Shown here: piece after piece, positions 31,401-62,718 of the stretch
Numbering within the stretch: position 1 is the first letter of the stretch
Layout: every line of letters starts with the position of its first letter
Assembly: GCF_042453785.1 (NCBI RefSeq)
Contig: NC_091673.1
Span: forward strand, 2,301,501-2,365,500
DNA length: 64,000 nt
From: Malus domestica
Lineage: Eukaryota > Streptophyta > Magnoliopsida > Rosales > Rosaceae
Reading direction: 5' to 3'
Translations under genes and position numbers: made by a program
The notes under the pieces: model-generated
Told to the model about the DNA's origin: nothing
The model's database searches: none
What the model saw: only the letters and a program-made list of their open reading frames with translations

Positions 31401-32533
31401 TTGAAGCTTCTGTCAATGTTGATCAGCAAGGATTCATATGCAGTCATGTGATTACTGCATCCACTGTCAATATACCAGATTCCTCTCTTGTTTTCAGTTT
31501 TTGCAACACTACAAGCATAAAAGACATTTACTTCCTCTTCTTCTGCTCTATGTGCATAGTTGACAACTTGGTTCCTTCTTGGATTACAATCTTTTGCTAG
31601 ATGGCCAAATCTGTCACACTTGGTGCATTTGGGTTTTCCCTTGAACCAGCAAACACCATAGTGTAATTTGTCACAGATTTTACACTTGGTTTTGGTAGAC
31701 TCACTGCTAGATTCTGATTTTGATTGTGAAGTATGGTTGTTGTCCCATTTCTTCCCTTTGCCTTTCCATAATTTCTTTTGATTTGAGTTGCTCCCCTGAC
31801 CCCTGTAACTGCTATCTCTCTCAGTCACACTTAGGCTAGTAAAAGCCTTTTCAGCTAAGTTTTCAGAATGCATATTTAACCTCTGCTCATAGCCTTTCAA
31901 TGTACCAATCACTTCTTGAACCTCAATGGAGTCAAGGTCTTTAGTTTCTTCTATAATAGATGCGATGGAATCATAAGATTTAGGCAAGCTAATAAGTATC
32001 TTTTGCACTAATCTTTGATTTGTCAGTTCTTCACCAAGAGTTTTCATTTGATTCACAATATCAGTCAATCTTGTTAAATAAACAGATAGAGCTTCACCAT
32101 CATTCATCCTAGTATACTCAAAATCTCTTCTTAAACATTGTAGTTTGACAGACCTAACCTTTTTGTCACCACGAAATTCTTGTTGAAGAACATCCCATGC
32201 AGTCTTGGAGGTTTCAAAGTTTGAGATTCGAGGAAAGATCTCATCAGACACTGCCCCTTGAATGATACCAAGAGCTTTTGCATCTCTGGTTTCATTAACT
32301 TTCATTGCTATCTTCCTCACAGACTGTTGATCTTCATCGCTAGAATCATCTTCAGTTTCTGCAGTTTCATAACCCTTGTCCACCAAAGTCCAGAGATCAT
32401 GTGATTTGAATATGGTCTTCATCTTGATGGACCAAAAATCGTAGTTGATCCCATTGAAAATAGGAGCCCTCAGATCTCCTCCACTGCTCGAAGTAACCAT
32501 GTGAGGCTTTGTAAGAACAGATGAGATTTTCAC
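28394..32533 (-). CDS. Copia 1 Gag-Pol polyprotein, 1379 aa, intact
   Basis: A single uninterrupted frame in Copia domain order. The Gag region (UBN2-like, [13 protein letters not shown]) is followed by a CCHC knuckle [14 protein letters not shown] near residue 300. Next are the protease active site DSGCSNHM (about 356), the integrase HHCC region [12 protein letters not shown] (about 490) with the DDE core (HTDVCGP..., RSDRGGEF), reverse transcriptase with YVDD (about 1057), and RNase H ([11 protein letters not shown], about 1260). Integrase before reverse transcriptase defines Copia. The protein would form virus-like particles and carry out reverse transcription and insertion. No stop or frameshift was seen. 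The sublineage was not assigned. Confidence 0.95.
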
Positions 32534-32630
32534 GATCCGGGTATGTTTTTCCCCCTTTTCTTTTCAGAGATACGAAGCACACACAAAACGCCCAGTCCTG
32601 AATTTGATCAGAACCTAAGCTCTGAGGCCA

Positions 32631-32929
32631 TGATAAATTCTGGTGAGTTAGTTTTGGTTCCTGGAGGCAGACAAGAAAAAATGAAAGCAGAGAACACAGA
32701 AAATCGGGAGGAATGTGAAAGGTTTCTTATCTGTGAAGTAATCACAGATATTTCAATAAATATCAACTTAGGATATTTCCTTACAAGCTAATCTAGAGCA
32801 ATCTCAGCCCTTGATTCAAAACAAAGATCTAAAGCATACACTTGTCTTATGAGACTAGACATACACTTTTCTATTGATTTCTTTCTTCTTAAACACTTGA
32901 ACAAAACTGAATTCTATTTAATTCCAACA
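32631..32929 (-). repeat. Copia 1 5' LTR
   Basis: 299 bases, followed on the minus strand by the primer binding site and leader. The gag-pol ATG is at 32533, 98 bases inside the element. Confidence 0.93.
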
Positions 32930-32994
32930 CTAATTGCAACCTAATTAGGTGTCTGGACAAGTTGCTTCACATTGCTTGTTTGATTTGTTGCTAA

Positions 32995-33345: not shown

Positions 33346-33825
33346 ACGCCAAAGAGTTTGGGAAACTACTTTACTGGATTTGAATCTGGACCCTTCATCA
33401 TTTCAGAGAACAAGAGACTGAAGACATATGTCCTTCTAGGCTCTAGCTATATATCTTACTTATATTTTGTGTCTTCTGTAAGTGGCTGCACAAAACTCTC
33501 CTTTTGCGTTACGATCGACCTTTCTGCAACGGAAAACGGAGTGTTTGGGTTCATTTTTGTATGCAAGGTAAAATGTATTGCTTTGTGTTGAAGTTATAGA
33601 GATGAGAAGTCCATATCACCATTATTTTTACTCTTAACCATAAATTATTTTTGGTGCGAGGTGCTTCATTGCAGACCAAAAACAAAGGAACCATTTTACC
33701 AGTGAGCGCAACGATTGTGTCTTTTCTCGCAACCTATTTACCTGGAATCTAGAAGATCATGAAACTCAAAATCGCAACGGAAGCGCAACGATTGTGTGTC
33801 TGTTCTCGCAAGATCTATTGAAGAA
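33346..33825. other. GT14-B upstream DNA
   Basis: Old promoter region of GT14-B (similar to 27840-27920) followed by a short duplicated string (GCGCAACGATTGTGT near 33707 and 33784). No gene. Confidence 0.4.
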
Positions 33826-34366
33826 TGTTAATTATTGACTCAAACATGTAGTCAAAGTCCAAATCTTTGGGCTACTTTTGTGGTCAAAAATTGTTGGTTG
33901 GCATGCTACATGTGGGAAACAAAAATTACATGCAATTGTGCCTAACTCTTTTTGACTTGATGTTAGGCCTTTGGTCATTGATGTCTTTGAGAAGCTTTTC
34001 TTTGGCTATAAAAGGAGAGCAAGGTGCAACCCATAAGCATGGAGAAGTAGAGAAGAACAAGGAAGAGAGAAAAATAGCAAGAAGCCATTTGGCATAGAGA
34101 AGAATTTTCTCAAATTGTCTTGCTTTGTATTTTTGGTTTTCTCTTCCTATTGTAAGTGTGAGAGCTTGGGGTTATTTGGGTCTTTGGGAAATTGAGTGAT
34201 AAACACTATTGTATGTTCTCATTGATTATAGTGGAATACTCCGTCGTCTCCAAACTGGATGTAGGCATTGCCGAACCAGTATAAATCTTGGTGTTCTTGT
34301 TGGTGTTGTTTTTATTCTGTTCTGTCTTACTATTCACTTACAGTCGTACGCCGCTTCCGCACAACA
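33826..34366 (+). repeat. Copia 2 5' LTR
   Basis: 541 bases. A GGCTATAAAAGGAGAGC box near 34003-34020 is the likely promoter TATA element. Confidence 0.92.
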
Positions 34367-34494
34367 AGTGGTATCAGAGCCCAGTTTCGTGAATAGTGTT
34401 GGTGCTACAGTTCTGTGAACAGTGAACTGCTACAGTATCTGTGAACAGTATTGTACATGTGAACAGTACCGTATTTGTGAACAGTGCCGAGTAG

Positions 34495-37400
34495 ATGGCT
34501 GGAGATAAAGATGAATCTGTAAGGAAGGAGTCAGCATCGTCTTCGTCTACATCCAATAGACATCCAACCACTACTACAAGGTTAGAGGTTGATAAATTCA
34601 ATGGCTCTAATAATTTTGGTATGTGGCAATGTGAAGTTATGGATGTGTTGTATCAACAAGAGTTAGATATGGTTCTGGAAGATAAACCAGAAGATATTGA
34701 TGACAAGCAGTGGACGCGAATTAATCTTCATGCTTGTGCTGCTATTCGATCATTCCTTGATAAGGAGTTGAAATACCCGTATATGAAGGAAACTTCTGCT
34801 AAGGAGTTATGGACGAAATTGGAGGAGAAGTATATGACCAAGAGCGCAGAAAATCGTCTCTTCTTGAAGAAGCGACTCTTCCGATTTCAGTATCGTCCAG
34901 GTATCTCTATGCACGAACACCTCAATGATTATAATAAAATACTTGCTGATTTAGCAAACCTTGATGTGAAAATTCCTGACGAGGACAAGGCACTATGTTT
35001 GTTAAATTCATTGCCTGATGATTATGATCATTTGACAACTACTATGTTGTATGGAAAATCCGAGGTGAAACTTGATGAGGTGTCTGCGGCATTGGTGAAT
35101 CATGAGTGTCGTAAGAAGGAACTGAAGACTCACAATTCACAAACCGAGGCATTTGTTGCAAGGGGTCGAACAGAGGAAAGAAAATCTGGGAAGCGGGGAA
35201 AATCTCGTTCAAAGTCACGAGGGAAGTTTCCTGCTAAAGATGAATGTGCTTTTTGTCGCCAAAAGGGGCATTGGAAGAAAGACTGCCCCAAATTGAAGAA
35301 CAAAGAGAAGGAGAAAGCGGGTTCTGAAGCAAATATTGCAAAATCTGGAGATGATGATTTCGAGTTTGCTTTGGCTAGTTCATATGCTGATGGTCACTCA
35401 AATGAGTGGATTTTGGATTCAGGTTGCACCTATCATATGTGTCCCATTCGAGAATGGTTTTCTAATTTCAAGGAGCTGGATGGTGGAGTTGTTTTGATGG
35501 GTAATAATAATGCCTGCAAAACACAAGGGATAGGCAAAATCTGTTTGAAGATGCATGATGGAACAGTCAGAGAATTAAGTGATGTTCGGTATGTACCGGA
35601 TATGAAGAAAAATCTCATCTCACTGGGTGCATTGGAATCCAAGGGTCTCAAGATCACCATGGAGGGTGGAGTTCTTAAAGCTGTGTACGGGGCACTGGTG
35701 GTGATGAAAGGTACAAGACGAAATAACTTGTATTTCTTGCAGGGGAATACAGTTATTGGTGGAGCAGCTGTCACCGAAGCTGCTGACGCAGATAGCACAG
35801 ACACCACGAGGTTATGGCATATGCGTCTTGGGCATGCTGGTGAAAAAGCGTTGCAAGGATTGGTGAAGCAAGGCTTATTGAAAGGTGCAAAGGCATGCAA
35901 ATTGGAATTCTGTGAGCATTGTGTGTTGGGTAAGCAAACTAGAGTAAAATTTGGCACTGCTATTCACCACACTAAGGGCATTCTTGATTATGTTCACACT
36001 GATGTTTGGGGACCTTCCAAGAATGCATCTTGGGGAGGTAGCCATTATTTTGTCTCCTTTGTTGATGACTTCTCTAGAAGAATATGGGTGTACACCATGA
36101 AGCGTAAAGATGAAGTCTTGAAGATATTCCTGAAGTGGAAAAAGATGATTGAAACGCAAAGCGGTCGAAAGATCAAGACTCTCAGATCAGACAATGGGGG
36201 TGAATATAAGTCTGATCCTTTCTTGAAAGTTTGTCAAGATGAGGGTATTGTGAGGCACTTCACGGTTAGGGAGACACCGCAACAGAATGGGGTGGCAGAG
36301 CGCATGAACCGTACTTTGCTTGAGAAAGTTCGGTGTATGTTGTCTAATGCTGGATTAGGCAAGGCGTTTTGGGCTGAGGCACTCACTTATGCAAGCCATC
36401 TCATTAATCGATTGCCAGCTGCTGCGAACGAGGGCAAAACGCCCATGGAGGTATGGTCTGGTAAACCTTGTACTGATTACAAGTTTTTACACATATTTGG
36501 TTGTCCTGCTTACTATTATGTCAGAGAAAGCAAGTTGGATCCAAGAGCAAAGAAAACTCTATTTATGGGCTTTAGCACTGGCGTGAAGGGATACCGACTC
36601 TGGTGTCCAGATGAGAAGAAATTTGTTGTAAGCAGAGATGTGACTTTTGATGAGGCTGCTATGGTTAATCAGAACAAGCATGAAGGTGAAACTGAAGCGA
36701 CCGAGACCATGAGTAGCTCAAAGCAGGTGGAGTTACTGAAGACTCCAGTTGTTCCAGTAAGGTCTGATGTTTCAAACACTAGTCCTACAGTTAATTCTGA
36801 TGATGAGGATGAGGATGATGAAGAGGAGGCACCTACCCAAGAGCCTCCACAGCAACAAGACTATATTGCAACCAGAAGATCGAGAAGGGAAATCCGAAAG
36901 CCTGCTCGATTTACTGATATTGTGGCATATGCACTTCCCGTTATTGAAGATGATATTCCATCCGCCTACAAAGAAGCTGTCATGAGTTCAGAGTGCGAGT
37001 TGTGGAAGAAATCTATGGATGAGGAGATGAAATCTCTTCATAAAAATGAGACTTGGAAGCTGGTTCAGTTACCAAAGGGGAAGAAAGCAATTGGTTGTAA
37101 ATGGGTGTATGCCAAAAAGATGGAATCTTTGGGAAAAGACAATGTAAGATTCAAAGCCAGATTGGTAGCTAAAGGCTACGCTCAGAAGGAAGGCATTGAC
37201 TACAATGAGGTATTTTCTCCTGTAGTAAAACATTCTTCTATTCGTATTCTGTTGGCTTTGGTTGTGCAGTTTGACCTTGAGTTGGCCCAACTTGATGTCA
37301 AGACTGCGTTCTTACATGGTGATTTGGAGGAAGAGATTTATATGTCTCAACCAGAAGGTTTTAAGGTTGCTGGAAAGGAAAATTGGGTTTGCAAATTGGA

Positions 37401-38532
37401 AAAATCATTGTATGGCTTGAAGCAGTCTCCAAGACAATGGTACAAGCGATTTGATCGATTTATGATCGGGCAGAAGTACACAAGAAGTCACTATGACCAT
37501 TGTGTATACTTTCGCAAACTACAAGATGGAACCTTCATTTATCTGCTTTTATATGTTGATGATATGCTTATAGCATGTAAGAGCAAAGTGGAGATTACAA
37601 GGTTGAAGACTCAACTAAGTAATGAATTTGAGATGAAGGACTTGGGAGAAGCTCGGAAGATACTAGGTATGGAAATTGAAAGAGATAGAGCGAAGGGCAA
37701 GATTAGTCTGTGTCAGAAGCAATATTTGAAGAAGGTACTACAACGTTTCAGGATGAATGAAAATTCAAAACCGGTTAGTACACCTCTTGCCTCTCATTTC
37801 AAACTTAACGCTTCTATGTCTCCTAAAACTGTTGAAGAGAGTCAGTACATGGCTCAAATTCCTTATGCAAATGTTGTTGGTAGTTTGATGTATGCTATGG
37901 TGTGTACTAGGCCTGATATTTCACAAGCTGTTAGTATTGTCAGTAGATATATGCATAATCCAGGAAAAGGGCATTGGCAAGCTGTGAAATGGATTCTACG
38001 GTATATTCTGGGTACTGTGGATGTTGGTTTATTGTTCCAGCAGGATAAAGTTACTGGTAAATGTGTTGTTGGATATGTGGATTCTGATTACGCAGGTGAT
38101 TTGGACAAGCGTAGGTCCACTACTGGTTTTGTATTCTCTATTGCTGGAGGTCCAGTAAGTTGGAGGTCGATTCTGCAATCTACAGTTGCTTTGTCGACTA
38201 CTGAGGCAGAATACATGGCTGTGACAGAAGCTATAAAGGAAGCCATCTGGCTTCAAGGGTTGCTTGATGACTTAGGGGTTCAACAAGACCATGTGGATGT
38301 TTATTGCGACAGTCAGAGTGCTATACATTTAGCAAAGAATCAAGTTCATCATGCACGTACGAAACACATTGACGTGAGGTTCCATTTTGTTCGTGAGATT
38401 ATTGACGAGGGAGATATTCTTCTTCAGAAGATTGGGACCGCTGACAATCCTGCGGATATGTTAACGAAGCCAGTTTCGTTGCACAAGTTTAAGCACTGCT
38501 TAGACTTGATTGGCGTTTGTAAAATTTGTTGA
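34495..38532 (+). CDS. Copia 2 Gag-Pol polyprotein, 1345 aa, intact
   Basis: An uninterrupted frame from ATG 34495. UBN2-type Gag ([14 protein letters not shown]), CCHC knuckle [14 protein letters not shown] (about residue 250), protease DSGCTYHM (about 307), integrase [12 protein letters not shown] (about 440) with DDE core ([16 protein letters not shown]), reverse transcriptase YVDDM (about 1020) and RNase H ([11 protein letters not shown], about 1234), ending [10 protein letters not shown]. Order and sequence are Tnt1-like. It could supply proteins in trans to non-autonomous Copia-like elements. Confidence 0.95.
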
Positions 38533-38602
38533 TTGCCCCATGGGGGAATTGGGAGACGACTATTAGGAGTTCTACTTAGAGGGTTTGAGTCAAGGTGGAG
38601 AT

Positions 38603-39143
38603 TGTTAATTATTGACTCAAACATGTAGTCAAAGTCCAAATCTTTGGGCTACTTTTGTGGTCAAAAATTGTTGGTTGGCATGCTACATGTGGGAAACAAA
38701 AATTACATGCAATTGTGCCTAACTCTTTTTGACTTGATGTTAGGCCTTTGGTCATTGATGTCTTTGAGAAGCTTTTCTTTGGCTATAAAAGGAGAGCAAG
38801 GTGCAACCCATAAGCATGGAGAAGTAGAGAAGAACAAGGAAGAGAGAAAAATAGCAAGAAGCCATTTGGCATAGAGAAGAATTTTCTCAAATTGTCTTGC
38901 TTTGTATTTTTGGTTTTCTCTTCCTATTGTAAGTGTGAGAGCTTGGGGTTATTTGGGTCTTTGGGAAATTGAGTGATAAACACTATTGTATGTTCTCATT
39001 GATTATAGTGGAATACTCCGTCGTCTCCAAACTGGATGTAGGCATTGCCGAACCAGTATAAATCTTGGTGTTCTTGTTGGTGTTGTTTTTATTCTGTTCT
39101 GTCTTACTATTCACTTACAGTCGTACGCCGCTTCCGCACAACA
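38603..39143 (+). repeat. Copia 2 3' LTR
   Basis: 541 bases, same as the 5' LTR as far as could be read. It carries the same TATA box and points away from GT14-C, which is on the minus strand. Confidence 0.92.
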
Positions 39144-39271
39144 AAGAATACAAGAATTTCACAATGGATAATCTATTGCAACTCTTCCCTTTCCCTCTTA
39201 CTCCTTTCTCTATTTGTTTCCCTTCTGTTTCTTCCGTGAAGCAGTAATATGAGTACAGTAGTCATGAATAT

Positions 39272-46054: not shown

Positions 46055-46446
46055 TGTTTATACCATATTTAGGGCCTCGTATTTAGATCTCGTACAAATA
46101 CTCAGGGGACTTAAATGTAATTATGGGATAAAGGAAGGGGCAAATATGTAATAAGTGAGGAGTCCTTATTCTATAAAAGGACCCCTCACCCTCACAATTA
46201 GAGAAGGCCTCACTCTCACTCTCAGAGGCCATTTCTGAAGCCTCTCACCCCCTCTCAAAGCTTCCTCACACCCCCTAAGCTCTAAGCTCTCTCTCTCCCT
46301 CTTCAACAGAGAAATACAATACAATCAGTGTGGACGTAGCCCAAACCTTGGGGTGAACCACGATATATCTTGTGTTATTTACATTTCATGCAGATTCACG
46401 GTCGGATTTACGTTGTTCCAAGACCATCCGGTTTTGTGCATCAACA
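46055..46446 (+). repeat. Chimeric element 5' LTR
   Basis: 392 bases. Promoter box CCTTATTCTATAAAAGGACC with TATAAAA at 46172-46178. Confidence 0.92.
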
Positions 46447-46964
46447 TTTGGCGCCGTCTGTGGGAAACGATACGAAACGTTATGTCGGTTCTCTTTCATT
46501 TTTTCATCTCCGTCGTGAATCTGCAAAATTTTGCAAAAACCCAGAAACAGAAAAGATCTAGATCTCAAAATCACTCATCTCTCTCTCTGGAAAACACATT
46601 GAAGCTAAACAAAAACCCCACTTCTCGATACACAGACACACTTTGTCTGTCTCTCTCTCTAATCTAATCCCTCAGCAAAAACAAAAAAAAGATCCAGAAG
46701 AAAAAGAAAGAGATTCCATCGTCTCAACCGTCATCATCATCTGCTCCGCAGCCCCACCAATCCTCCGCCGCACCCCAATCTTTCCATCGTCTGATCGCTG
46801 TCAACGTCCCCAACGAAGAGGACGAGATCGTTTTCGCAGCTCCTAGCTCCCGCCGCCTCTGTGAGATCAGACACCCATTCAATCAGCACATGAGAAGAGA
46901 GAACGAGATCAAGTTGCAATCCACGTTTGGCCAAAATCTTCAGAGCAGAGACCAAAAGTCGGAG

Positions 46965-47190
46965 CAACTAACAGAGGAGCAGATCGCCGAGTTCAAGGAA
47001 GCTTTTTGCCTCTTTGACAAAAGATGGCGATAGTTGCGTCACTACCAAAGAGTTGGGGACTGTGATGAGATCTTTGGGACAGAATCCCACTGAGGCTGAA
47101 TTGCAGGACATTATCAGTGAAGTTGATGCTGATCAGAATGGCACAATCGATTTCTCCGAGTTTCTGAATTTGATGGCGAGGAAGATGAAG
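46965..47190 (+). pseudogene. Captured calmodulin N-lobe fragment, intronless
   Basis: [19 protein letters not shown], then [56 protein letters not shown]: residues about 3-77 of plant calmodulin with EF-hands 1 and 2. A single extra A in the run at 47018-47021 breaks the frame inside EF-hand 1, giving a stop soon after. Plant calmodulin genes, from memory, have an intron inside EF-hand 1 (near GDG-C). None is present here, so the piece derives from spliced RNA. It ends in the central linker. Confidence 0.9.
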
Positions 47191-47239
47191 CTGTCATTAG
47201 AGGTCGAAAAATCAGGTGATGGGTCCATCGCGATCTTTG

Positions 47240-47420
47240 ACTCTACCCCGATATCGGCAAGAAAGCCAGAGATCTTCTTTACAACGATTACCAGAGCAAC
47301 CATAAGTTCACTGTCACCACTTACACTTCCACCGGATTTTCAATCAGTTCGATCGGAATCAGGAAGGGTGATCTATATTTGGGGGATGTCAGTACTCAGC
47401 TGAAGAACAAGAACAACGCC
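47240..47420 (+). pseudogene. Captured VDAC (mitochondrial porin) N-terminal fragment
   Basis: The frame [20 protein letters not shown] continues [14 protein letters not shown] and [20 protein letters not shown]. It matches the start of plant voltage-dependent anion channel proteins as I remember them ([14 protein letters not shown]...). About 60 residues are present. A MG(P)S-like start just upstream looks out of frame. It is joined to the calmodulin piece without an intron. Confidence 0.8.
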
Positions 47421-47520
47421 AACTGCTGCTGCGACAGCGCCATCCACCTTTGCTTGGCTCGCTATCTGTGAGAAGAATGTCTCGTCAGACGAAAGTTCCC
47501 AAATTCCAGAGAGATCGACA

Positions 47521-47710
47521 ATGAAGCAGCAATCCAAGGACCCATTCGAAGCGGCATTCGAGGAGCAAGAAGACGACTCACCGCTCGATTCTCCGGCCGT
47601 CGCTGAAGCCACAAGCGCCGCCTTTGGTGCCCTAGAAGAGGACGACCCTCTTCTTGTTCCTAGCCTGTCATCTTCCTCCGCGCCATCAGCTGCAGCGCCA
47701 AAAGCAATAG
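47521..47710 (+). pseudogene. Captured TAF11-like N-terminal fragment
   Basis: ATG 47521 opens MKQQSKDPFEAAFEEQEDDS followed by PLDSPAVAEATSAAFGALEE. The MK-SKDPFEAAFEEQE...SP start matches plant TFIID subunit TAF11 as I recall it. The histone-fold part is absent: the frame runs on into unrelated sequence to 47973. The 100 bases before the ATG look like its 5' UTR. Identification rests on a short segment. Confidence 0.6.
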
Positions 47711-48283
47711 CAGTTACCAGAAAAGTTCTCTCTTTTCTTTTGCTTTTGTTTCACAAAGTCTCTTTTCCTTTACAGAAAAGAAAAATGAGGAGTGAGAATG
47801 GATGGGCACGACCAGGCTGTCCAAGAAAAGCAAGTGGGTTTACAAGCAAAGATACCTTACAAAGCAACATGGGTGGACAGAGAAGGAGTGGAGAGATAAA
47901 CAAAGGCAAATGGGTGGTGTCTGTCCTAGCAATTGTCATTCTAGAGAAAAGCAATGAAAGCAATGGCAATTAAAAACTTAAACTCAGATGGTCTCCAAAG
48001 GCCATAAAACATGGGTGGACAGATATAATTGCGGAAGACCAGAGATAATTGCGGGAGACTCATGGATCATGCAGAAAGGAAAAGCAGAAAGGAAAAGAAA
48101 AAGTAAAAGAAAAAGCTTCTGCAGCCATCTGCTATTCCACTACCCAACTTTCAATTGTGCAGATACTATCCCATTATCCAACCATCTGTCATACCCACCT
48201 TCTACAACAATATTTATGAATGATGTAATTTTTTTTTTATCTCTCAGAGACATCTGTATAAACCCCATCAGAGGGTAATAATA

Positions 48284-48311
48284 CAAAAAAAAAAAAAAAA
48301 AAAAAAAAAAG
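48284..48311 (+). other. Internal poly(A) tract inside the LTR element
   Basis: An uninterrupted run of about 26 A after GGGTAATAATAC. It lies at the boundary between the gene-derived part and the repeat-rich part of the element, and looks like the tail of a captured or reverse-transcribed mRNA. Confidence 0.6.
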
Positions 48312-48481
48312 CGGCAAAGCCCAAAATTAATGGGCTGGCATGTCGTGGAGGGCGAAGGCCCATAAGCCCAAAATAGCACCAACCAGGTGACCAAAAGTAT
48401 GCCCAGTACTCCAAAAATTATTCGACAACTTGCCTCTATTATCACCAACCAGGTGATCAAAAGTACGCCCAGTACTTCAAG

Positions 48482-48722
48482 TCATACATGAGCATTACTC
48501 ATGTCAATCATACATAAATATTCATGAGCATCACTCATCCAATCATACATAAACATTCATGAGCATCACTCATGTCAACATTCATGAGCATCACTCATGT
48601 CAACATCCATGAGCATCACTCATGTCAATCAACATAAACATCCATAAGCATCACTCATGTCAACATCCATGAGCATCACTCATGTCAATCAACATAAACA
48701 TGCATGAGCATCACTCATGTCA
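48482..48722. repeat. Minisatellite 1 (GAGCATCACTCATGTCAA units)
   Basis: About eight units built on CATGAGCATCACTCATGTCA with optional ATCAACATAAACAT inserts, giving spacings near 21 and 33 bases. Part of the chimeric element. Confidence 0.85.
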
Positions 48723-48723
48723 A

Positions 48724-49235
48724 ATCAGCTTCAAAGACTTCATTTACAGAGCTCTAGCTTCAAAAGCTTCATTTACAAGAGCTCTAGCTTCAAAGACTTC
48801 ATTTACAGAGCTCTAGCTTCAAAAGCTTCATTCACAAGAGCTCTAGCTTCAAAAGCTTCATTTACAGAGCTCTAGCTTCAAAAGCTTCATTTACAAGAGC
48901 TCTAGCTTCAAAAGCTTCATTTACAGAGCTCTAGCTTCAAAAGCTTCATTTACAAGAGCTCTAGCTTCAAAGACTTCATTTACAGAGCTCTAGCTTCAAA
49001 AGCTTCATTTACAAAAGCTCTAGCTTTAAAAGCTTCATTTACAAGAGCTCTAACTTCAAAGACTTCATTTACAGAGCTCTAGCTTCAAAAGCTTCATTTA
49101 CAGAGCTCTAGCTTCAAAGACTTCATTTACAGAGCTCTAGCTTCAAAAGCTTCATTTACAAAAGCTCTAGCTTTAAAAGCTTCATTTACAGAGCTCTAGC
49201 TTCAAAGCTTCACTTGCAAAGCTTCACCTACAAAG
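48724..49235. repeat. Minisatellite 2 (AGCTCTAGCTTCAAAAGCTT units)
   Basis: About 16-17 tandem units of 28-30 bases, AGCTCTAGCTTCAAAAGCTT plus CATTTACAAG. Units alternate between an AAAGCTTC and an AAGACTTC form and between -ACAG and -ACAAG ends, which indicates a two-unit higher-order pattern. Confidence 0.9.
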
Positions 49236-49277
49236 CTTCAGTGCAAGGTATACAAATATCGCCTCCTAACAACCGCC

Positions 49278-49873
49278 ACTTCGGCCCATACATGGATTCA
49301 ATTTGAAGTCTCCAGCCAACAGACTCTATTGACCGAAGACTTGGGGGACTACATTATGTACCATATATTGGGCCTCAACTGGGCCTCATGAAAAATACTT
49401 GGGGGACTCTAGCCCATTATTTATGTATTAAGGAGCGAACCCTTATTCTATAAAAGGGACTCCCTCACTTTCATTGAAAGATCACCCATGATTTATGTAT
49501 TGAGGAGCGAGCCCTTATTCTATAAAAGGGACTCCCTCACCACCATTAGAGAGCATCGTCGCCTACTGAGCAACCGTCTCACTGCAAGCATCAACTCTAA
49601 CCCATCACTTATGTATTGAGTAGAGAGCCCTTATTCTATAAAAGGGACTCCCTCACCTTCAAACGCCACAAGCCGAGCCAACCAAGGCAACACAAGCTAC
49701 AAGCAGAGCGGCCTCGCAACATGTGCTACTTCTAGTTGAGCATCATTTCAGATTGGGCACCGCCTCATATCAAGTATTAGTTCTAGACGACATCTAGTTA
49801 CTTCGGCCCACACATGGACTGAATTTCAAGTCTCCAGCCAAAAGACTCTCTTGACTGAAGACTTGGGGGACTA
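49278..49873 (+). other. Spare promoter boxes and duplicated pre-LTR module
   Basis: A roughly 75-base module (ACTTCGGCCCA...CTCCAGCCAA...GAAGACTTGGGGGACTAC) occurs at 49278-49352 and again directly before the 3' LTR at 49799-49873. Between them three copies of TTATTCTATAAAAGGGACTC (TATAAAA at 49449, 49521 and 49637) resemble the LTR promoter box. Confidence 0.75.
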
Positions 49874-49874
49874 C

Positions 49875-50266
49875 TGTTTATACCATATTTAGGGCCTCGT
49901 ATTTAGATCTCGTACAAATACTCAGGGGACTTAAATGTAATTATGGGATAAAGGAAGGGGCAAATATGTAATAAGTGAGGAGTCCTTATTCTATAAAAGG
50001 ACCCCTCACCCTCACAATTAGAGGAGGCCTCACTCTCACTCTCAGAGGCCATTTCTGAAGCCTCTCACCCCCTCTCAAAGCTTCCTCACACCCCCTAAGC
50101 TCTAAGCTCTCTCTCTCCCTCTTCAACAGAGAAATACAATACAATCAGTGTGGACGTAGCTCAAACCTTGGGGTGAACCACGATATATCTTGTGTTATTT
50201 ACATTTCATGCAGATTCACGGTCGGATTTACGTTGTTCCAAGACCATCCGGTTTTGTGCATCAACA
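49875..50266 (+). repeat. Chimeric element 3' LTR
   Basis: 392 bases, two differences from the 5' LTR. TATAAAA at 49992-49998 points toward LRK-2, whose ATG is 424 bases past the LTR end. Confidence 0.92.
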
Positions 50267-50689: not shown

Positions 50690-53336
50690 ATGAATCAAAA
50701 CCTTTGCATCTTCATTCTGATCTTCCTTCTGATCTTCCTTCTCTCATCAGAAACCCCAGCATTTGCAGTGGACTTTTACTACCAAAACTGCAGCGTCCCC
50801 ACAACTTGTGGCCGCCAAAAAATCAGCCACCCGTTCTACATCCAAGGCAGGCAACAAGACTTCTGCGGCTACCCCGGTTTCCAGCTCTCCTGCCAGGGCG
50901 GCGCAGACGACGACGAAGAAGAAGCCTACCCACTTCTCCGGTTGTCTGGAAACGATTACATAATTCACAACATCAGTTACGAAAGCCAGACTCTTGTCGT
51001 CTCAAATGCTCTACTTTCGCACTACTTGGACAACTCTTCCTGCACTAATCTCTCACTGATCCATAATTTAACCCTCCCTAATGAACAGTTTGAGCTGGGT
51101 CCAAACCAAGATCAGTTCTTTCTGCTCTACAACTGCAGCCCTTCGTTAGTCGATTATTTTCCAAAGTACAAGATTGGTTGTAATAACACTTCGGTTCTTG
51201 CTCTGCCTCGGCAGATATATCCGAAATTTGGAGGTCTTGTGGATGTTGAAAATTGTGGATCGAGTGAGGTGGCGGTGGCGCATGGTGGAGGGTATGGCAA
51301 TGATGAGGCGGCGGGAATGAAGGAAGTGTTGGGAAGAGGGTTTGAGATGAAATGGATGGCTGGTGACTGCAGCCGCTGCCAGAGGAGTGGAGGGCTATGT
51401 GGGTTTAACTTCACCACCCACCTTTTTAGGTGCCTCTGCCCCAAAAGGACCCATTACGTGAGCTGCGAGAAGGAAAATGACGAAGGTTAACTCTCTCTCT
51501 TTGTTCACTCTTTTTCTCATTTTTTTTAACATGAACTATGAAATGTTAGATAATTACTACGCGGCATACATGATTTAGGCCAATTAATTAACGCAGTATG
51601 TTGCTTTGTTACACTCAAATTCAAATTCACCTCTACAGATTAGAGTACTTTAGAATATCGTTTAATTTTGATACAAAGATAATTTTGGTATGGGATAATT
51701 GTCCCACTTGCCCAACTCTCCTGTGCAAAAAGTTGAAAAATCTCATCCAGTCTAACTCCTACCATGAATTAGATTTCAAAGGAAAAAAGGGTGGCTGCTG
51801 GCTGGAAGTTGAATATAGTCACGTCTAATCAAATATTAAAGAGAAGATCGTCCGTGAAGTCAAATCTGAACCTCACAACGTCCTCACAACGTCACGATTT
51901 AAAAAATATCCTTCACGATTATTTGTGATAAAAACTATTTGAAACTTAGTCACATAATCTTATTGTTAGTGTGTGTAATTCTGTATTAATCTAGTTGTCC
52001 TAACCAAAATTTTAAATTTGGTTTTTGATTATGATATGAGATAATGATCATTGTGCAGGACCTGGAACTGGAAACTTAGTCGCTAAAGTCTCAATAGGTA
52101 ATTATAACTTGCTTAGATTAGTTTTTCTAAGTTTATGTGTTGTAATAAGGTTTATAGCATGTCTGCAATGGCTACCATTCGATCGAATAAATCACCATAT
52201 TCACCGTATATTTATCAGGTGCAGTTGCTGGTCTCATATTTCTAATCGTTATTGTTTGCTGCTTAAGAAGAAAGTTGTCATCATACAGATTTCTTTTCTT
52301 TCGGAAGAAGCAAAACCAGAATCGTCAAATTGTAGAGGCCTTTCTAAGGAGCTACGGGCCGCTTCAAGTCCGAAGGTATAGCTATTTGGAGGTCAAGAAC
52401 ATGACCAACTCCTTCAAAGAAAAATTAGGACGTGGAGGCTATGGTGCTGTTTACGAAGGAAAGTTAAAGGACGGCTGTCTTGTAGCAGTGAAGGTCTTGA
52501 CCAAACTAACAGGAGATGGAGAAGAATTTATGAATGAAGTGGCAGCCATTAGTAGAACTTCCCATGTCAACGTCGTCACCTTGTTAGGCTTTTGTTTTGA
52601 GGGTTCCAAAAGAGCTCTCATCTATGAATTCATGCCTAATGGATCCCTAGAGAAATTCATATTTGATTCAAATACTCCCAATATAGGTCATGATCACTTG
52701 GGATGGGAAGCATTGGATCAAATTTCACTTGGCGTTGCTCGAGGTTTGGAGTATTTACATCGTGGTTGCAACACAAGAATTTTGCATTTCGACATCAAGC
52801 CTCACAACATTCTTCTCGATGAAAACTTCACGCCAAAAATCTCGGATTTTGGCCTTGCCAAAATATGCAACAAGAAAGAGAGTATTGTCTCGATGTTGGG
52901 CGCTAGAGGTACAGCAGGTTACATTGCTCCAGAAGTATTTTCTAGAAACTTTGGAAAGGTCTCACACAAGTCGGATGTGTACAGCTATGGAATGATGCTT
53001 TCGAATATGGTTGGGGGAAGTAGGAACACAGACGATGAAGCTGAAAATACAAGTGAAATATATTTTCCACATTGGATTTACCAACGTCTTGAATTGGACG
53101 AAGAGCTTGGTATGCAGAGTATTACGAACGAGGAAGATGAAGCAAGAGCAAGGAAGATGATGATAGTGAGCTTGTGGTGCATACAAACTGATCCTTCAAA
53201 CCGGCCAGCGATGAAGGAAGTGATAGATATGTTGGAAGGGAGTGTTGATTCGTTGCAGATACCTCCCAAACCTTACTTGTCTTCTCCTCCAAAATCCCCA
53301 GCAGATTCTTCTACAGCATTGGTATCAATGAAGTAG
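50690..53336 (+). CDS. LRK-2: LRK10-like receptor kinase, type-B ectodomain, 650 aa
   Basis: Exons 50690-51485, 52059-52097 and 52219-53336 (GT-AG). The signal peptide MNQNLCIFILIFLLIFLLSS contains a small internal repeat (IFLL twice) absent from LRK-3. GUB_WAK-type region: YYQNCSVPTTCG, FYIQGRQQDFCGYPGFQLSC. A WAK-associated cysteine region is at about residues 220-260 (GDCSRCQRSGGLCGFN, RCLCP). Several NxS/T glycosylation sites are present. Then GPGTGN hinge, membrane helix near 279-295, and kinase: lysine about 370, HFDIKPHN with D about 470, DFG 488-490. It is a non-RD receptor kinase at the plasma membrane, probably wall or pathogen sensing. Kinase exon: 8 amino-acid differences from LRK-1 in 353. 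The frame is intact. A chimeric LTR element lies just upstream in the same orientation. Confidence 0.88.
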
Positions 53337-53584
53337 AAACCTTGTATTTTACTTGAACAAATCTATGTTTTTCTGAGGCAATCTAAATAATGAAGCATGC
53401 GTTTCATGTTTGTTTTGTTTTTGTTTTTATTTTTTACTCTATATATGAATCAACACAGTAGGAGTGACCCTATTACTACCCCTCCTGCAATCATCTATAA
53501 ATAAATATATTAGTAATGTGAAACATTTGCATTTGTGGGTCAGACCAGTTGACCAAGGCAGCGTGCCCGTTTCATCTCCCTGGT
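53337..53584. other. LRK-2 3' flank, cut at a duplication junction
   Basis: Matches the LRK-1 and LRK-3 3' flanks up to CCGTTTCATCTCCCT and then switches at about 53583 to the truncated LTR element. Confidence 0.7.
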
Positions 53585-55332: not shown

Positions 55333-58300
55333 ATGAATCAAAACCTTTGCATCTTCATTCTGATCTTCCTTCTCTCATCAGAAACCCCAGCATTTGCAGT
55401 GGACTTTTACTACCAAAACTGCAGCGTCCCCACAACTGGTGGCCGCCTAAGCATCAGCTATCCGTTCTACATCCAAGGCAGGCAACAAGACTTCTGCGGC
55501 TACCCTGGTTTCCAGCTCGCCTGCCAGGGCGGCGCAGACGACGACGAAGAAGCCTACCCACTTCTCCGGTTGTCTGGAGACGATTACATAATTCACAACA
55601 TCAGTTACGAAAGACAGACTCTTGTCGTCTCAAATGCTCTACTTTCGCACTACTTGGACAACTCTTCCTGCACTAATCTCTCACTGATCCATAATTTAAC
55701 GCTCCCTAATGAACTGTTTGAGCTGGCTCCAAAGCAAGATCAGTTCTTTCTGCTCCACAACTGCAGCCCTTCGTTTGTCGATTCTTTTCCAACGTACAAG
55801 ATTGGTTGTAGTAACACTTCGGTTCTTGCTCTGCCTCGGCAGATATATCCGAAATTTGAAGGTCTTGGGGAGGTTGAAAAGTGTGGATCGAGTGAGGTGC
55901 CGGTGGCGCAAGGTGGAGGGTATGGGAATGATGAAGCGGCGGGAATGAAGGAAGTGTTGGGAAGAGGGTTTGAGATGAAATGGCTGGCTGGTGACTGCAG
56001 CGGCTGCCAGAGTAGTGGAGGGCTATGTGGGTTTAACTACACCACCCACCTTTTTAGGTGCCTCTGCCCCAACAGGTCCTTTTCTGTGTTCTGTAGGGGC
56101 GAAGAAGGTTAGTCTCTCTCTCTTCACTCTTTTTTTTCTCTCTTTTTTACATGCAATATGAATTGTTAGATAATTACTACGCAGCATACATAATTCAGGC
56201 TAGTTCATTAACACAATATGTGGCTTTGTTGTAAGACTAAACTTATCATAAATATAAGTTAAGAGATTAAGCTCATGAACCACAAATTTATACAAGTATT
56301 AAAATCACAATTCGATAAACATAATGACAAACTAACCCGTAAAAACAGTAGAAGAGAAGCCAAAGCAGACTTCTAAACAGTGCACCTTCTCCTCTCTTAC
56401 AAAACCAAAAGTACTCAAACTAACAATAGGTCTTAGTTCAATATTGAGCGTGTATTTTGTGAGAGCAGTGTCTACTATTTATAATAGATTAATCCTAATA
56501 ATTCTCCTATTCGAAACATCATAGGATACCAACTATGAATCCAAATCATATCTGAATTACAATCCTACAAGAATTAGGATAGTTTTAAGCTTTCTAGCAA
56601 GAATTTTCTATGTCAATTGAAACACTACAACCGGCTATAATATTTAATTTCATACTCATATTCTAACATTTGTTACACTCGAATTCAAATTCATCTCTAT
56701 AGATTAGAGTAGTTCAGAATATCGTTTAATTTCGAAACGAAGATAATTTCTGGTATGGGGATAATTGTCCCACTTGCCCAACTCTCCTGTGCAAAAAGTT
56801 GAAAAATCTCATCCAGTCTAACTCCTACCATACATTAGATTTCAAAGGAAAAAGGGCGGCTGCTGGCTGGAGGGTTGAATATAGCCACCTCTAATCAAAT
56901 ATTAACGAAGAAGATGGTCCGTGAAGTCGAATCTGAACCTCTACATCATCACGATTTAACGTGAAAAATATCCTTCACGATTATTTGTGATAAAACCATT
57001 TGAAACTTAGTCACATAATCTTATTGTTAGCGTGTGTAATTCTGTATTAATCTAGTTGTCCTAACCAAAATTTTAAATTTGGTTTTTGATTATGATATGA
57101 GATAATGATCATTGTGCAGGACCTGGAACTGGAAACTTAGCCGCTAAAGTCTCAATAGGTAATTATAACTTGCTTAGATTAGTTTTTCTAAGTTTATGTG
57201 TTGTAATAAGGTTTATAGCATGTCTGCAATGGCTACCATTCGATCGAATAAATCATCATATTCAACGTATATTCATCAGGTGCAGTTGCTGGTCTCATAT
57301 TTCTAATCGCTATCATTTGCTGCTTAAGAAGAAAGTTGTCATCATATAGATTTCTTTTCTTTTGGAAGAAGCAAAACCAAAATCGTCAAATTGTAGAGGC
57401 CTTTCTAAGGAGCCACGGGCCGCTTCAAATACGAAGGTATAGCTATTTGGAGGTCAAGAACATGACCAACTCCTTCAAAGAAAAATTAGGACATGGAGGC
57501 TATGGTGCTGTTTACAAAGGAAAGTTAAAGGACGGCTGTCTTGTAGCAGTGAAGGTCCTGATCAAACTAACAGGAGATGGAGAAGAGTTTATGAATGAAG
57601 TGGCAGCTATTAGTAGAACTTCCCATGTCAACGTCGTCACCTTGTTAGGCTTTTGTTTTGAGGGTTCCAAAAAGCTCTCATCTATGAATTCATGCCTAAT
57701 GGATCCCTAGAGAAATTCATATTTGATTCAAATACTCCCAATATAGGTCATGATCACTTGGGATGGGAAGCATTGGATCAAATTTCACTTGGAGTTGCTC
57801 GAGGCTTGGAGTATTTACATCGTGGTTGCAACACAAGAATTTTGCATTTCGACATCAAGCCTCACAACATTCTTCTCGATGAAAACTTCACGCCAAAAAT
57901 CTCGGATTTTGGCATTGCCAAAATATGCAACAAGAAAGAGAGTATTGTCTCGATGTTGGGCGCTAGAGGTACAGCAGGTTACATTGCTCCAGAAGTATTT
58001 TCTAGAAACTTTGGAAAGGTCTCACACAAGTCGGATGTGTACAGCTATGGAATGATGCTTTCGAATATGGTTGGGGGAAGTAGGAACACAGACGATGAAG
58101 CTGAAAATACAAGTGAAATATATTTTCCACATTGGATTTACCAACGTCTTGAATTGGACGAAGAGCTTGGTATGCAGAGTATTACGAATGAGGAAGACGA
58201 AGCAAGAGCAAGGAAGATGATGATAGTGAGCTTGTGGTGCATACAAACTGATCCTTCAAACCGGCCAGCGATGAAGGAAGTGATAGATATGTTGGAAGGG

Positions 58301-58396
58301 AGTGTTGATTCGTTGCAGATACCTCCCAAACCTTACTTGTCTTCTCCTCCAAAATCCCCAGCAGATTCTTCTACAGCATTGGTATCAATGAAGTAG
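55333..58396 (+). pseudogene. LRK-3: LRK10-like receptor kinase with a kinase frameshift
   Basis: Exons 55333-56107, 57120-57158 and 57280-58396. Exon 1 is type B like LRK-2 (MNQNLCIFILIFLLSSETPA, YYQNCSVPTTGG, where a conserved C reads G). The WAK-associated cysteine region is GDCSGCQSSGGLCGFN. The kinase exon is 1117 bases instead of 1118: TCCAAAAGAGCTC in LRK-1 and LRK-2 is TCCAAAAAGCTC here (near 57668-57679). This shifts the frame just before LIYEFMPNGSL, so the first part ends at 57710 and the catalytic loop is out of frame. The glycine loop also differs (GHGGYG for GRGGYG). A 439-base solo LTR sits in intron 1. The downstream part from MPNGSL stays open to the stop. A single-base assembly error cannot be excluded. 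Confidence 0.82.
56230..56668 (-). repeat. Solo LTR in LRK-3 intron 1
   Basis: 439 bases with TG...CA ends (minus-strand start TGTTAGAATATGAGT, end AGTTTAGTCTTACA). Flanked by the perfect 5-bp duplication TTTGT (56225-56229, 56669-56673). A TATA-like CTATTATAAATAGTAG lies on the minus strand near 56475. It is absent from the matching LRK-2 intron, which shows the empty site GCTTTGTTACACTC. No internal region remains, so it is a product of LTR-LTR recombination. Confidence 0.88.
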
Positions 58397-59967
58397 AAAC
58401 CCTGTATTTTACTTGAACAAATCTATGTTTTTATGAGGCAATCTAAATAATGAAGCATGCGTTTCATGTTTGTTTTGTTTTTGTTTTTATTTTTTCCTCT
58501 ATATATATATATATATTACTAATGTGAAACATTTGCATTTGTGGGTCAGACCAGTTGACCAGGGCAGTGTGCCCGTTTCATCTCCCTTGCGCCAAGTTCG
58601 GATCCACTTCTCCATAAATCAAAGCATTTTAGAATATTTTTGTCAAAAAAAAAAAAAGAAGGTGAAAACAATTATTTCGTGTTAAAAGTTGTCTACCATA
58701 CAGCTAAAGCTAGGATCCAACTTATTGTGCGAAATTTGATGTTGTCACGAATGGAATGATCGAGTAGATGGAACAGTTCTTGCGAAGCCACGTGAATGTA
58801 TTTTGACAAACAGTGAAGAGAATTGGAGTCGTGTTGAATTTCAAGATTTTTGGAGCACCTTTGGCAATGAGTGAATAGGCAAGTACCCCATTACTTGAAA
58901 AGTTGCTTTATGGTGGTGCTTGATGAATTTTCAAGCGAAAAACGTATTGCATATGATCAACCTAAGCAAAACTATCCATGCACACTGTCAATACGATTGA
59001 CCAAAAAAAAAAAAAGATTCAAAAAGTGAGTAGTTGAAAATAAGCTTTTTGATAAGCTCACTTTGAAGAGAGTCTCAAACTGATGAAACTGCAAGTCGGT
59101 GAAAAACATTTGAAAGATAACAAAATCATGGTTACAAAATGACGTACATTCAAGATATAAACTTTTGCAAGTTGTATATTACGCTTCCTTCAACCTCGCC
59201 CACCCTACACATAAAAAGACATTAAAATTAAAGTCGTCTCCGAACTCTAAGTGCACTTGTATTATTTTGAGGGATTAAACCATTCATTTCTACGATCAGA
59301 TCCTACTTTAGAACAAAACAATCAACGATATGGCTCCAAAGTAAAACGAATTAACAATCGATTGATGCTACTTTTGATAACATAACCTACATTTGGGCAT
59401 GTGAACATCAAAGTCATATCAACAAGCCACACACGGCTATCATGAGTTTTCATGAAATTTGTGTTTTGCTAGAATTTTTGAAATGCACATGCCGTATCAT
59501 TAACAAAGCATATTTTAATGGATCTGATTATCTCCTCTCCATTATTCTTATTCGAACGCTCAAGAATAATTCACACCATCATCTTGTTTTATCTTCTCTG
59601 AAAAAAGAGAGAAAACCGAGAGAGGAGAGAAGGGGAGGGAGAGGAGGAGAAAAGGAACGAGAGAGAATCCAATTTCATTTTAAGGCACTTTGTCAATATC
59701 ATATGTGAAAGCACGCAATGTAGCAACCTTAAGCAAGAAATGATAGATTGATTTTATTCTTACTTTTGAGACAAATCTTTAGTAAAGTTGTTTGACTAAG
59801 ACAACTCTTGAATCAATATAAAATTGGTTAAAATTAAAAGGCTAAATAGTCAAAATTGTCTCTGAAACTTGCATAATCAATAGAAATAGTTATTGAGATT
59901 GAAAATCAATAGAAATAGTCCTTGAGATTGTCCACCATCCATGATTTTGGTCATTCTGTTAAAAACT
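58397..59967. repeat. LRK-3 3' flank, matching 21055-22802
   Basis: Collinear with the LRK-1 3' flank, but with one copy of the 151-bp unit instead of two and a (TA)n tract near 58501. No gene. It is cut at 59968 by a Gypsy-type LTR. Confidence 0.85.
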
Positions 59968-60946: not shown

Positions 60947-61755
60947 ATGCCAATTGAAACACGATCGGTAAAAAAGAAAACAGCTATGGGAAAGTCGACA
61001 ACCGATCTACCAACTCAGAACATAGGACACAATGTGCCACAAGCGCAGAATCTCATCAGCGCCGTAACACCTGAGTCCACGAGCGCAACTCGCCGAGAAA
61101 GGGAAGTTAATCTCGACGGTCAGGTTCGCAGTCTTGAAATTCCCGACAGGAACACTTGCGTTCTCAATGAAGGAGTAATAGAAGATTGTGATGAAGATGG
61201 TGGCGAAGGATCCGATCCACCCACAAGGTCGTTTCTTCGAAAACGGCTTGACGAGTAATCTCGGACGGTTGAACAGACATTGAGTCGAGGAATCGATAAG
61301 CTTCATGACGTGATACGTAATTCCAGTGAAGCATAAACCAGATTACTCGAAATACTGGTTAGTAAGGTCAGCGATGGTAGAACTTTCGATCTTGCCCAGC
61401 ATTTACCGCCGAGGAATAATCTATTATCAAGTGCATCGGCCGAGCCAATTCCTGGTCGGCTCAGGCCAATTCAATTGGAAAGAGGAGGAGGGTCGAATAG
61501 TAGGTCAGACGGATCCAACCAGAGAGTGGAAGTAACACCCGTCGATATGACCGAAGTTCAACCAGAGAGTGGAAGTAACACCCATATCCAGCTTACGTAG
61601 AACAGGTCGAATACCCTAGAGGTTTCAAGATCCCGGATTTTAGCCTTTTTGCCAGAGAATCATCTTTATCCTCGTTAGAACATGTAGTTCGCTTCACCGC
61701 ACAATGCGGAGACGTTAATAGTGACTTTCACAAGCTGCGACTTTTCAATTTTTCG
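60947..61755 (+). pseudogene. Gypsy Gag N-terminal region, broken
   Basis: An open frame from 60947 (MPIETRSVKKKTAMGK) stops at 61256-61258. Shorter frames follow. Near 61519-61583 the string CCAGAGAGTGGAAGTAACACCC occurs twice, a short duplication that disturbs the frame. From about 61590 the true Gag frame resumes (YPRGFKIPDFSLFA, FTAQCGDVNSDFHKLRLF). Confidence 0.65.
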
Positions 61756-62718
61756 TTGACCGGTTCAGCATTCGCTTGGTATATTAACCTCCCACCGAAC
61801 TTCGTCCAGAGTTGGGAGGAGTTGGTCGAGAAATTTCATGAGCAGTTTTATCGGCCAGGAATGGAAATGTCAGTATCCTCACTAGCAAGGATGGCTCAGG
61901 CGTCCGACGAGTCACCAATGAATTATCTTACTAGATTCAAATCAGTCAGGAATTGGTGCCGAGTGCCTCTCTCCGAAGTTGAATTCGTCAGACTTGCTCT
62001 GAACGGTCTTGACGTCGAATACAAAAAGAAATTCTTGGGGGCAAACTTTCGGGATATGTACGAATTAGCCCAACATGTCGAGCAATATGATTATTTGCTC
62101 CGCGAGGAAAAGATTTCAAAAGCTCCATCTCGGGGGACGATTTACAAGAATTCTACTGTCAATTATGCATCAACCGAGGATGAATGCGTTAGTGTGGATG
62201 CAACTGAGATAGTGATAGATAAGCCATACGTTTGCAAGGCACTGACTCAAGTTGACTCTAAGGAAGTCAAAATCCGCTCGGCTACTGAAGGAACACTGAA
62301 ACCGTCAAAAGTTTATACTTTTGATATTACAAAGGCTGATGCAATTTTTGATCAACTGTTATCAGCGAGGATCATCAAACTTCGGCCTGGGCACAACATT
62401 CCCAAGGCCGAAGAGCTTAAAGGAAAGATATATTGCAAATACCACAATTCAAGCAAACATACGACAAACAATTGCGTCGTGTTTCGAGACAACGTCCAAA
62501 GCTGGATTGATAATGGCAAACTGAAATTTCCAGAGAAGAAGATGAGTGTTGATACTGACCCGTTCCCCACGGCAACAGTAAATATGGTCGATGCGTGCCT
62601 ACCTAAAGACAAAGGGAAAGGGAAGGCCGAAGTTGTTGCAACGCAACGCTTTCGGAATCAGAATTCTCGGCCACGTTTCATGGCCGATTTTCGTTCAACG
62701 AACCACCTACAGCTTTAA
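61756..62718 (+). pseudogene. Gypsy Gag core (Retrotrans_gag) fragment
   Basis: Retrotrans_gag-like LTGSAFAWYINLPPNFVQSW, EELVEKFHEQFY, YLTRFKSVRNWCRV, with FVRLALNGLDVEYKKKF. A zinc-knuckle-like CKYHNSSKHTTNNC with VVFRD lies near 62431. The frame is open but its N-terminal part is broken, so no complete Gag is made. Confidence 0.75.

Follow-up and report, generated by a model that had tools for sequence, protein, structure and literature searches.

Can a mobile element without protein genes of its own carry pieces of several unrelated host genes, and if so, how were the pieces acquired and are they passed on as a unit? The question is raised by a locus in apple (Malus domestica), within a stretch of 64,000 nucleotides (positions 2,301,501 to 2,365,500 of NC_091673.1, assembly GCF_042453785.1) that is analysed here at its full length and called the window. 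An original prediction, made from the letters alone, had placed at window positions 46055–50266 a non-autonomous long terminal repeat (LTR) element with fragments of calmodulin, VDAC and TAF11 genes. In our analysis this is very probably a recent, tRNA-Lys-primed, non-autonomous LTR retrotransposon, whose family serves as a platform on which host sequences are captured and reshuffled.

Structure and insertion of the window element

The element, which lies on contig C13, is complete, with two LTRs of 392 bp enclosing an interior of 3428 bp (Table 1). The LTRs differ at two sites (46204, A/G; 46341, C/T) and the flanks carry a perfect 5-bp target site duplication (TSD), CTAAA, as predicted. When the flanks were rejoined without the element they matched, with no gap over the insertion point, a paralogous site at about 55.07 kb of the window; this site, in another copy of the receptor-kinase region around the element, is empty and has CTAAA once. 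The primer binding site (PBS), TGGCGCCGTCTGTGGGAA, is complementary at 18 of 18 positions to the tRNA-Lys 3′ end, CCA included, of the same genome; the primer-site pattern has 19 exact genome matches, and all five of the stretches fetched were called by ARAGORN as tRNA-Lys with anticodon TTT (ARAGORN found no tRNA in the window). The four window open reading frames (ORFs) scanned against Pfam gave no gag or pol match, in keeping with the predicted absence of both. At a substitution rate of 1.3 × 10−8 per site per year the two mismatches in 392 sites date the insertion to about 0.2 million years ago (a slower rate would give an older date), and the view of a recently mobile, non-autonomous element can be upheld.

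Host genes in the window cargo

Donors for the three unrelated host genes predicted were found on C14 (calmodulin), C13 (VDAC) and C10 (TAF11), and all three pieces are in sense relative to the LTRs, the orientation predicted. The calmodulin piece matches Pfam EF-hand_7 (E 7.6 × 10−12) and the VDAC piece Porin_3 (E 6 × 10−11); the TAF11 piece matched no Pfam model, the TAFII28 domain of its donor being encoded in three exons downstream of the captured part. Searches of the PDB with the VDAC and TAF11 pieces gave one chance match (E 0.89) and otherwise none. The C14 calmodulin gene aligns in two pieces (93% over 135 columns and 98% over 158), which in the donor stand on either side of a GT-AG intron missing from the element, and the right edge of the captured piece is the end of donor exon 2. 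Three exons of the C13 VDAC gene are matched, and both introns between them are absent. The claim that the fragments are intronless therefore stands for calmodulin (one intron) and VDAC (two), while the TAF11 piece, which comes from within one exon, is uninformative. No function is claimed for the cargo: the calmodulin piece is without its start codon and contains a 1-base frameshift.

The TAF11 sequence, continuous in the C10 donor, is permuted in the element: a downstream piece (89% over 63 bases) stands ahead of an upstream piece (95% over 252 bases) with 4 extra bases between them. The upstream piece starts about 30 nt after a TATA-like sequence in the donor, TATATATTT, and so plausibly begins at the 5′ end of the mRNA, at a transcription start placed from this spacing. 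A circular RNA, instead of two jumps, would also set the downstream part ahead of the upstream part, but this origin is highly improbable given that the upstream part starts in the 5′ untranslated region (UTR) at that distance from the TATA-like sequence, that the downstream part ends within the exon and that the letters of a splice site are found at neither edge in the donor gene.

The VDAC and TAF11 pieces meet at AGAACAAGAACA; no longer stretch is common to VDAC exons 1–3 and the first 400 TAF11 bases. A shared stretch of 12 was reached by one of 200 single-base shuffles (shuffle mean 8.1), and template switching between two mRNAs would be expected to leave its join in just such a place. 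The predicted cargo span of 46.45–48.3 kb contains pieces from all three donors, but the fragments do not fill it: 46876–46901, 47191–47238 and 47723–47793 have no donor match, the donor search for 46531–46875 returned other elements only, and 48218–48310 is conserved family sequence.

Shared cargo and recombination

An element on C17 (L029; C17:7464500–7474400) carries calmodulin, VDAC and TAF11 in the window's order between LTRs of its own and with a TSD of its own, CCCTT. It is 99.2% identical to the window over 46871–48214 (14 gap columns set aside). The cargo had thus been put together by the time of the window insertion; the pieces did not enter one by one at this site, the outcome named beforehand as fatal to the original prediction. 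L029 has a 316-codon open frame that joins DUF1677 and calmodulin; the sole methionine in the first 150 residues of this frame is at the end of the DUF1677 part and we therefore claim no DUF1677–calmodulin protein. The calmodulin piece recurs also on C7 (L037), there with a diverged leader, the conserved block and an LTR pair. L029 itself sits between the LTRs of an older, diverged relative.

The window element is a recombinant, with a join near 46871–46877. Over 46525–46876 it is 99.7% identical to another member, L039, and L029 gives there only a match of chance size; from 46871 to about 48230 L029 is the sole close match among the loci compared, and beyond that point other members fit best. 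A second pair tells the same: L010 and L040 are nearly alike in the cargo (5 differences over 1918 sites) but less so in the tail (72 over 1119; Fisher p 3 × 10−26, after exclusion of 256 gap columns in the repeats). The cargos of L010, L011 and L013 are met again in part at other loci, in other combinations, and cargo blocks have thus been exchanged between family backbones. The prediction that the cargo moves as one unit is borne out by the common order on C17 but has to be qualified in view of the exchange of blocks and of the recombinant make-up of this very element.

A common backbone with varied cargo

The genome searched comprises 651 Mb. With the LTR 40 of 3815 first-look candidates were scored (those listed are at least 95% identical), and with the leader 40 of 1872 genome-wide; besides the window's own, the leader matches inspected were L010, L017, L039, L040, L041, L053 and L054. 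The candidate numbers, which are not counts, only suggest a family of about a thousand copies. Twenty elements were measured, namely the window element as the start point, 18 reached through the best LTR matches and L029 reached through its VDAC cargo, so that their closeness is partly selected by LTR similarity. The 20 do not include L023/L024 (a nested insertion) or L015 (the remainder of the L014 array).

Family members have in common the LTRs, the tRNA-Lys primer site, the leader and the tail. The 20 elements are 3.4–5.1 kb long, with LTRs of 369–395 bp and interiors of 2.6–4.3 kb; TSDs are perfect in 18 of them, the LTRs of 17 show 0–3 mismatches, and the first 20 bases including the PBS are exact in 18. 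Every one has an interior A-run of 13–40, in most with a conserved block just upstream. Between leader and A-run the interiors differ, and the 20 elements hold 17 main cargos (the window element and L029, L019 and L021, and L026 and L027 being taken as sharing theirs); a few other elements share the first 400–475 cargo bases. That the copies found through the LTR might all carry the window's cargo is thus not the case. Eleven further loci came from cargo or leader matches. Five of these have an A-run of at least 12 (L040–L043 and L045); two, L038 and L044, have no LTR match over 200 bases, and L053 has one LTR only.

The A-run bears on two explanations. If LINE-type (long interspersed nuclear element) retrocopies had been inserted successively into an LTR element that was then amplified, intronless fragments and an interior A-run would both result; but the A-run is present in 20 of 20 elements whatever their cargo and in most of them follows the conserved block, so that it does not represent a captured gene's tail. 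As, in addition, the window pieces are 5′ or internal parts and two of them meet in 12 nt that they have in common, we hold successive LINE insertion to be very unlikely. The A-run was considered too as a landing pad for mRNA tails by oligo(dT)-type pairing. This predicts mRNA 3′ ends just upstream, and was rejected on account of the conserved block there in most members and of the 5′ or internal position of the window pieces.

The variety could also stem from a few old captures, the present cargos being recombined from that old pool with no capture going on. Block sharing is extensive, and the window cargo differs from the best donors found by about 2–7% as against an LTR divergence of 0.5%, so that capture preceded the window insertion. 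On the other hand, 17 main cargos in 20 elements and Pfam families that are nearly all confined to one member require many separate captures, and we consider an exclusively old pool unlikely.

Two arrangements were noted in passing. At C9:14745891–14760100 (L014/L015) five family LTRs with a 3289-bp period enclose four interiors, with GAACA at both outer flanks; this array is a tandem concatemer of one element. At C3:2101095–2120339 a family cargo piece recurs at a spacing of about 1681 bp on both strands, in a region also matched by L025 cargo.

Host origin of other cargos

A Pfam scan (cut-off 10−3) of 40 hand-picked ORFs from 18 elements, L021 and L027 being omitted as near-duplicates, found host domains in 11 of the 18. 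Apart from the window element these were L029 (DUF1677 and EF-hand), L010 (DUF1117, class II aldolase and DCB), L009 (flavin monooxygenase type), L011 (thioredoxin, 14-3-3 and RINGv), L017 (alpha-amylase), L019 (RPE65), L020 (DUF1666), L022 (Abhydrolase_3), L026 (Methyltransf_29) and L028 (AAA lid). Two further loci, L043 and L045, gave acidic ribosomal protein and AAA matches. In a strand control 137 sense ORFs (of 161, mainly shorter ones being left out) matched 31 Pfam families and all 137 antisense ORFs together matched one; no gag or pol family is among the 25 of the 31 sense families listed.

L010 drew on a gene for an aldolase-type dehydratase, one intron of which is gone, and on a BIG-type gene (names assigned by Pfam class). 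Those of L011 are thioredoxin (one intron removed), 14-3-3, an AAA ATPase and exons of TPR type and MADS K-box type, the last two named by eye; with RINGv, Pfam and donor matches together put at least six host genes in this element. The window element, L029, L010 and L011 thus hold two or more host genes each. The cargo of L025, without Pfam match in three ORFs, corresponds to two exons on C16 and four blocks on C5, with one gap of only 30 bases, and the L013 cargo matches paired loci on C13/C16 and C14/C6.

Taken over four donors, five GT-AG introns are absent (calmodulin one, VDAC two, aldolase-type dehydratase one, thioredoxin one), and in the L025 donors three more, judged by exon coordinates alone. 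Capture at the DNA level, by gap repair or ectopic recombination as in Pack-MULEs and Helitrons, would fit cargo blocks that are patchy and common to several elements, but not these five missing introns, the strong sense bias or the retroviral-type LTR and TSD integration anatomy of 18 of the 20 elements, and seems to us exceedingly unlikely.

A proposed scheme for capture and reshuffling

The family gives the impression of a natural device by which the plant's messages are sampled and shuffled. In the scheme that we favour, an autonomous relative would supply the proteins that package element RNA with spliced host mRNAs and other family RNAs. As the minus strand is made, the reverse transcriptase would come off the element RNA after the 3′ block and before the 5′ leader, copy stretches of host mRNA by jumping at short shared sequences (for TAF11 as far as the mRNA 5′ end) and rejoin a family RNA ahead of the primer site; we infer this timing, as we do the packaging and the helper. 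The 5-bp duplication would arise at integration and cargo blocks would be swapped between members in later rounds. A stronger form, in which the family, itself devoid of coding sequence, is an obligate capture platform with a constant leader and tail, an interior continually rebuilt from spliced mRNAs and members re-sorted by template switching, amounting to a sense exon library of some thousand copies, has in our judgement about an even chance of being right.

Several observations count against capture and reshuffling as set out here. Seven of the 18 elements scanned (L012, L013, L014, L016, L018, L025 and L033) had no Pfam match at or below 10−3 in the ORFs picked; donor searches covered L013 and L025 among these, and L016 (LRR_4, 0.006) and L033 (Glyco_hydro_17, 0.0078) gave weaker matches. 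One antisense ORF (set A2) matches Biotin_lipoyl at 1.2 × 10−8, possibly through antisense or plus-strand capture, and 147 bases of L025 (query 1012–1158) match C7:13611563–13611709 on the strand opposite to the locus neighbours, possibly as an inverted piece; neither is expected from simple minus-strand capture. The TAF11 permutation implies either that the enzyme returned to mRNA of the same species or that its template was circular, and the join has the 4 extra bases. Microhomology was examined at a single join, that of VDAC and TAF11, and four stretches of the window cargo are without an identified donor. Four of the 11 further loci (L037, L039, L053 and L054) have an LTR match and no A-run of at least 12. 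Finally, no autonomous partner was seen, no dedicated search having been made for one.

A 13.4-kb LTR pair on C9 was considered for that role and rejected: it is a family member, and the gag-pol-like frame lies in a nested element with repeats of its own (by eye). At C9:2108392–2122400 (L023/L024) a family member is interrupted by a separate element with a gag-pol-like frame of 1459 codons.

Relation to known elements

By its near-identical TG…CA LTRs, 5-bp TSD, tRNA PBS and purine stretch the window element is an LTR retrotransposon; its interior lacks the gag and pol of an autonomous one, and where family loci were inspected for long ORFs, any gag-pol-like frame was either nested or lay beyond the LTR pair (partly by eye). 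At 3.4–5.1 kb (n = 20) the members are too large for a terminal-repeat retrotransposon in miniature (TRIM). Pack-MULEs and Helitrons end in inverted terminal repeats or rolling-circle ends; here there are LTR ends, a TSD and missing donor introns.

Pack-MULEs hold exons and introns (PMC4717578). In large retrotransposon derivatives (LARDs) the coding region is replaced by a large conserved non-coding sequence, usually above 4 kb (PMC4668562), whereas in this family the interior is 2.6–4.3 kb and its middle is not conserved. The window element falls in the gene-transducing type represented by maize Bs1, with which it shares intron-free segments of several unrelated host genes. Bs1, likewise an LTR retroelement with three host genes, acquired segments of plasma membrane H+-ATPase, xylan endohydrolase and beta-1,3-glucanase genes in three transductions (PMC13317346) and captured exons only (PMC4717578); as described it is one element with one gene set, whereas here there are 17 cargos in 20 elements and exchanged blocks. 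The soybean TRIM GmaRetroS15 is also non-autonomous, with three intronless host fragments and a 5-bp TSD (PMC4717578). Gene-carrying TRIMs of its class, 30 elements in seven subfamilies from M. truncatula and G. max, are however shorter (1172–1449 bp; PMC4717578) than this family with its LTRs of 369–395 bp. These two are precedents for multi-gene capture by LTR elements, which the original prediction had called less often seen in plants.

Surveys give the wider setting, with 425 intact maize LTR elements that carry host gene fragments from at least 189 independent captures (PMC2774510) and 672 and 1343 captured genes in rice and sorghum (PMC3726574). The available portion of the maize survey reports no element with more than one standard nuclear gene (PMC2774510), unlike the window element, L029, L010 and L011. 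LTR-mediated retroposition by switching at microsimilarities on co-packaged mRNA was described by Tan et al. (2016; as given in PMC5408686), where repeated template switching is considered possible; retrocopies are described there, and here several mRNAs per element across a family. Rosaceae families with TGTT/AACA ends were rejected as the same, the pear LTRs being 152–266 bp and the coding ones Copia (PMC5659011). In the open-access literature, with subscription papers mostly outside the scope, we found no family most of whose members bear different multi-gene patchworks. The single element is of a known type; what is new is capture and reshuffling across a family.

For one case of mosaics between members, from 2017, we know of no host cargo. 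The likeness to that work is drawn from its title in the reference list of PMC12786077.

Annotation of the window

Coordinates are collected in Table 1. Copies similar to the LTR promoter segments of the tail are present in other family members.

Table 1. Features of the window element, in window positions.
Feature	Position	Strand	Basis or remark
Left TSD, CTAAA	46050..46054	.	sequence and empty paralogous site
5′ LTR, TG…CA ends	46055..46446	+	
Primer binding site TGGCGCCGTCTGTGGGAA	46449..46466	+	tRNA-Lys complement
Family leader, conserved	46447..46530	+	leader search
Module 1	46531..46875	+	common to elements on C8, C10, C9 (two), C4, C16
Module 1 right end, recombination join	46875	+	comparison with other elements
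Calmodulin 5′UTR and exons 1–2, intron removed	46902..47190	+	donor C14:31089197-31089899
VDAC exons 1–3 (partial), two introns removed	47239..47415	+	donor C13:5203811-5204757
12-nt microhomology AGAACAAGAACA, VDAC/TAF11 join	47404..47415	+	longest stretch common to the mRNA parts compared
TAF11 downstream part, ahead of upstream part (permuted)	47404..47466	+	donor on C10
TAF11 5′UTR and N-terminal coding fragment	47471..47722	+	donor on C10
Recurrent 3′ module, mostly common to about 20 other loci	47794..48215	+	
Conserved block directly 5′ of A-run	48218..48284	+	family comparison
A26 run	48285..48310	+	
Tail tandem repeats, 25/35/60-bp units	48483..48723	+	
Tail tandem repeats, 29/59-bp units	48727..49223	+	
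LTR-promoter-like segment, three times, within tail	49406..49661	+	
Polypurine-type stretch ahead of 3′ LTR	49857..49874	+	
3′ LTR, 392 bp	49875..50266	+	
Right TSD, CTAAA	50267..50271	.	sequence

Tandem duplicates (94–97%) of a WAK-type receptor kinase region occupy 19509–21700, 51605–53581 and 56669–58992, and the element lies upstream of one of them, at a distance of a few hundred bases. Elsewhere in the window are two Copia elements (28111–32931 and 33819–39144); the LTRs are 100% identical in the first and 99.6% in the second, and the gag-pol frames run uninterrupted for 1389 and 1345 codons respectively. An ORF with a Retrotrans_gag domain (1.7 × 10−11) at 61579–62715 is a fragment of another retroelement.

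Significance

Gene capture by plant LTR elements has mostly been discussed through single cases. A recent family of many members with identifiable donors, intron loss and shared blocks would permit the rate of capture, the rules of switch sites and recombination to be measured directly. The family is also a reminder for annotation, as such loci can be mistaken for genes. The chimeric host sequence that it supplies in sense orientation could contribute to new genes or to small RNAs directed at the donors, and if the family does prove to be an obligate platform the plant would possess a standing mobile library of its own exons, shuffled and in sense orientation.

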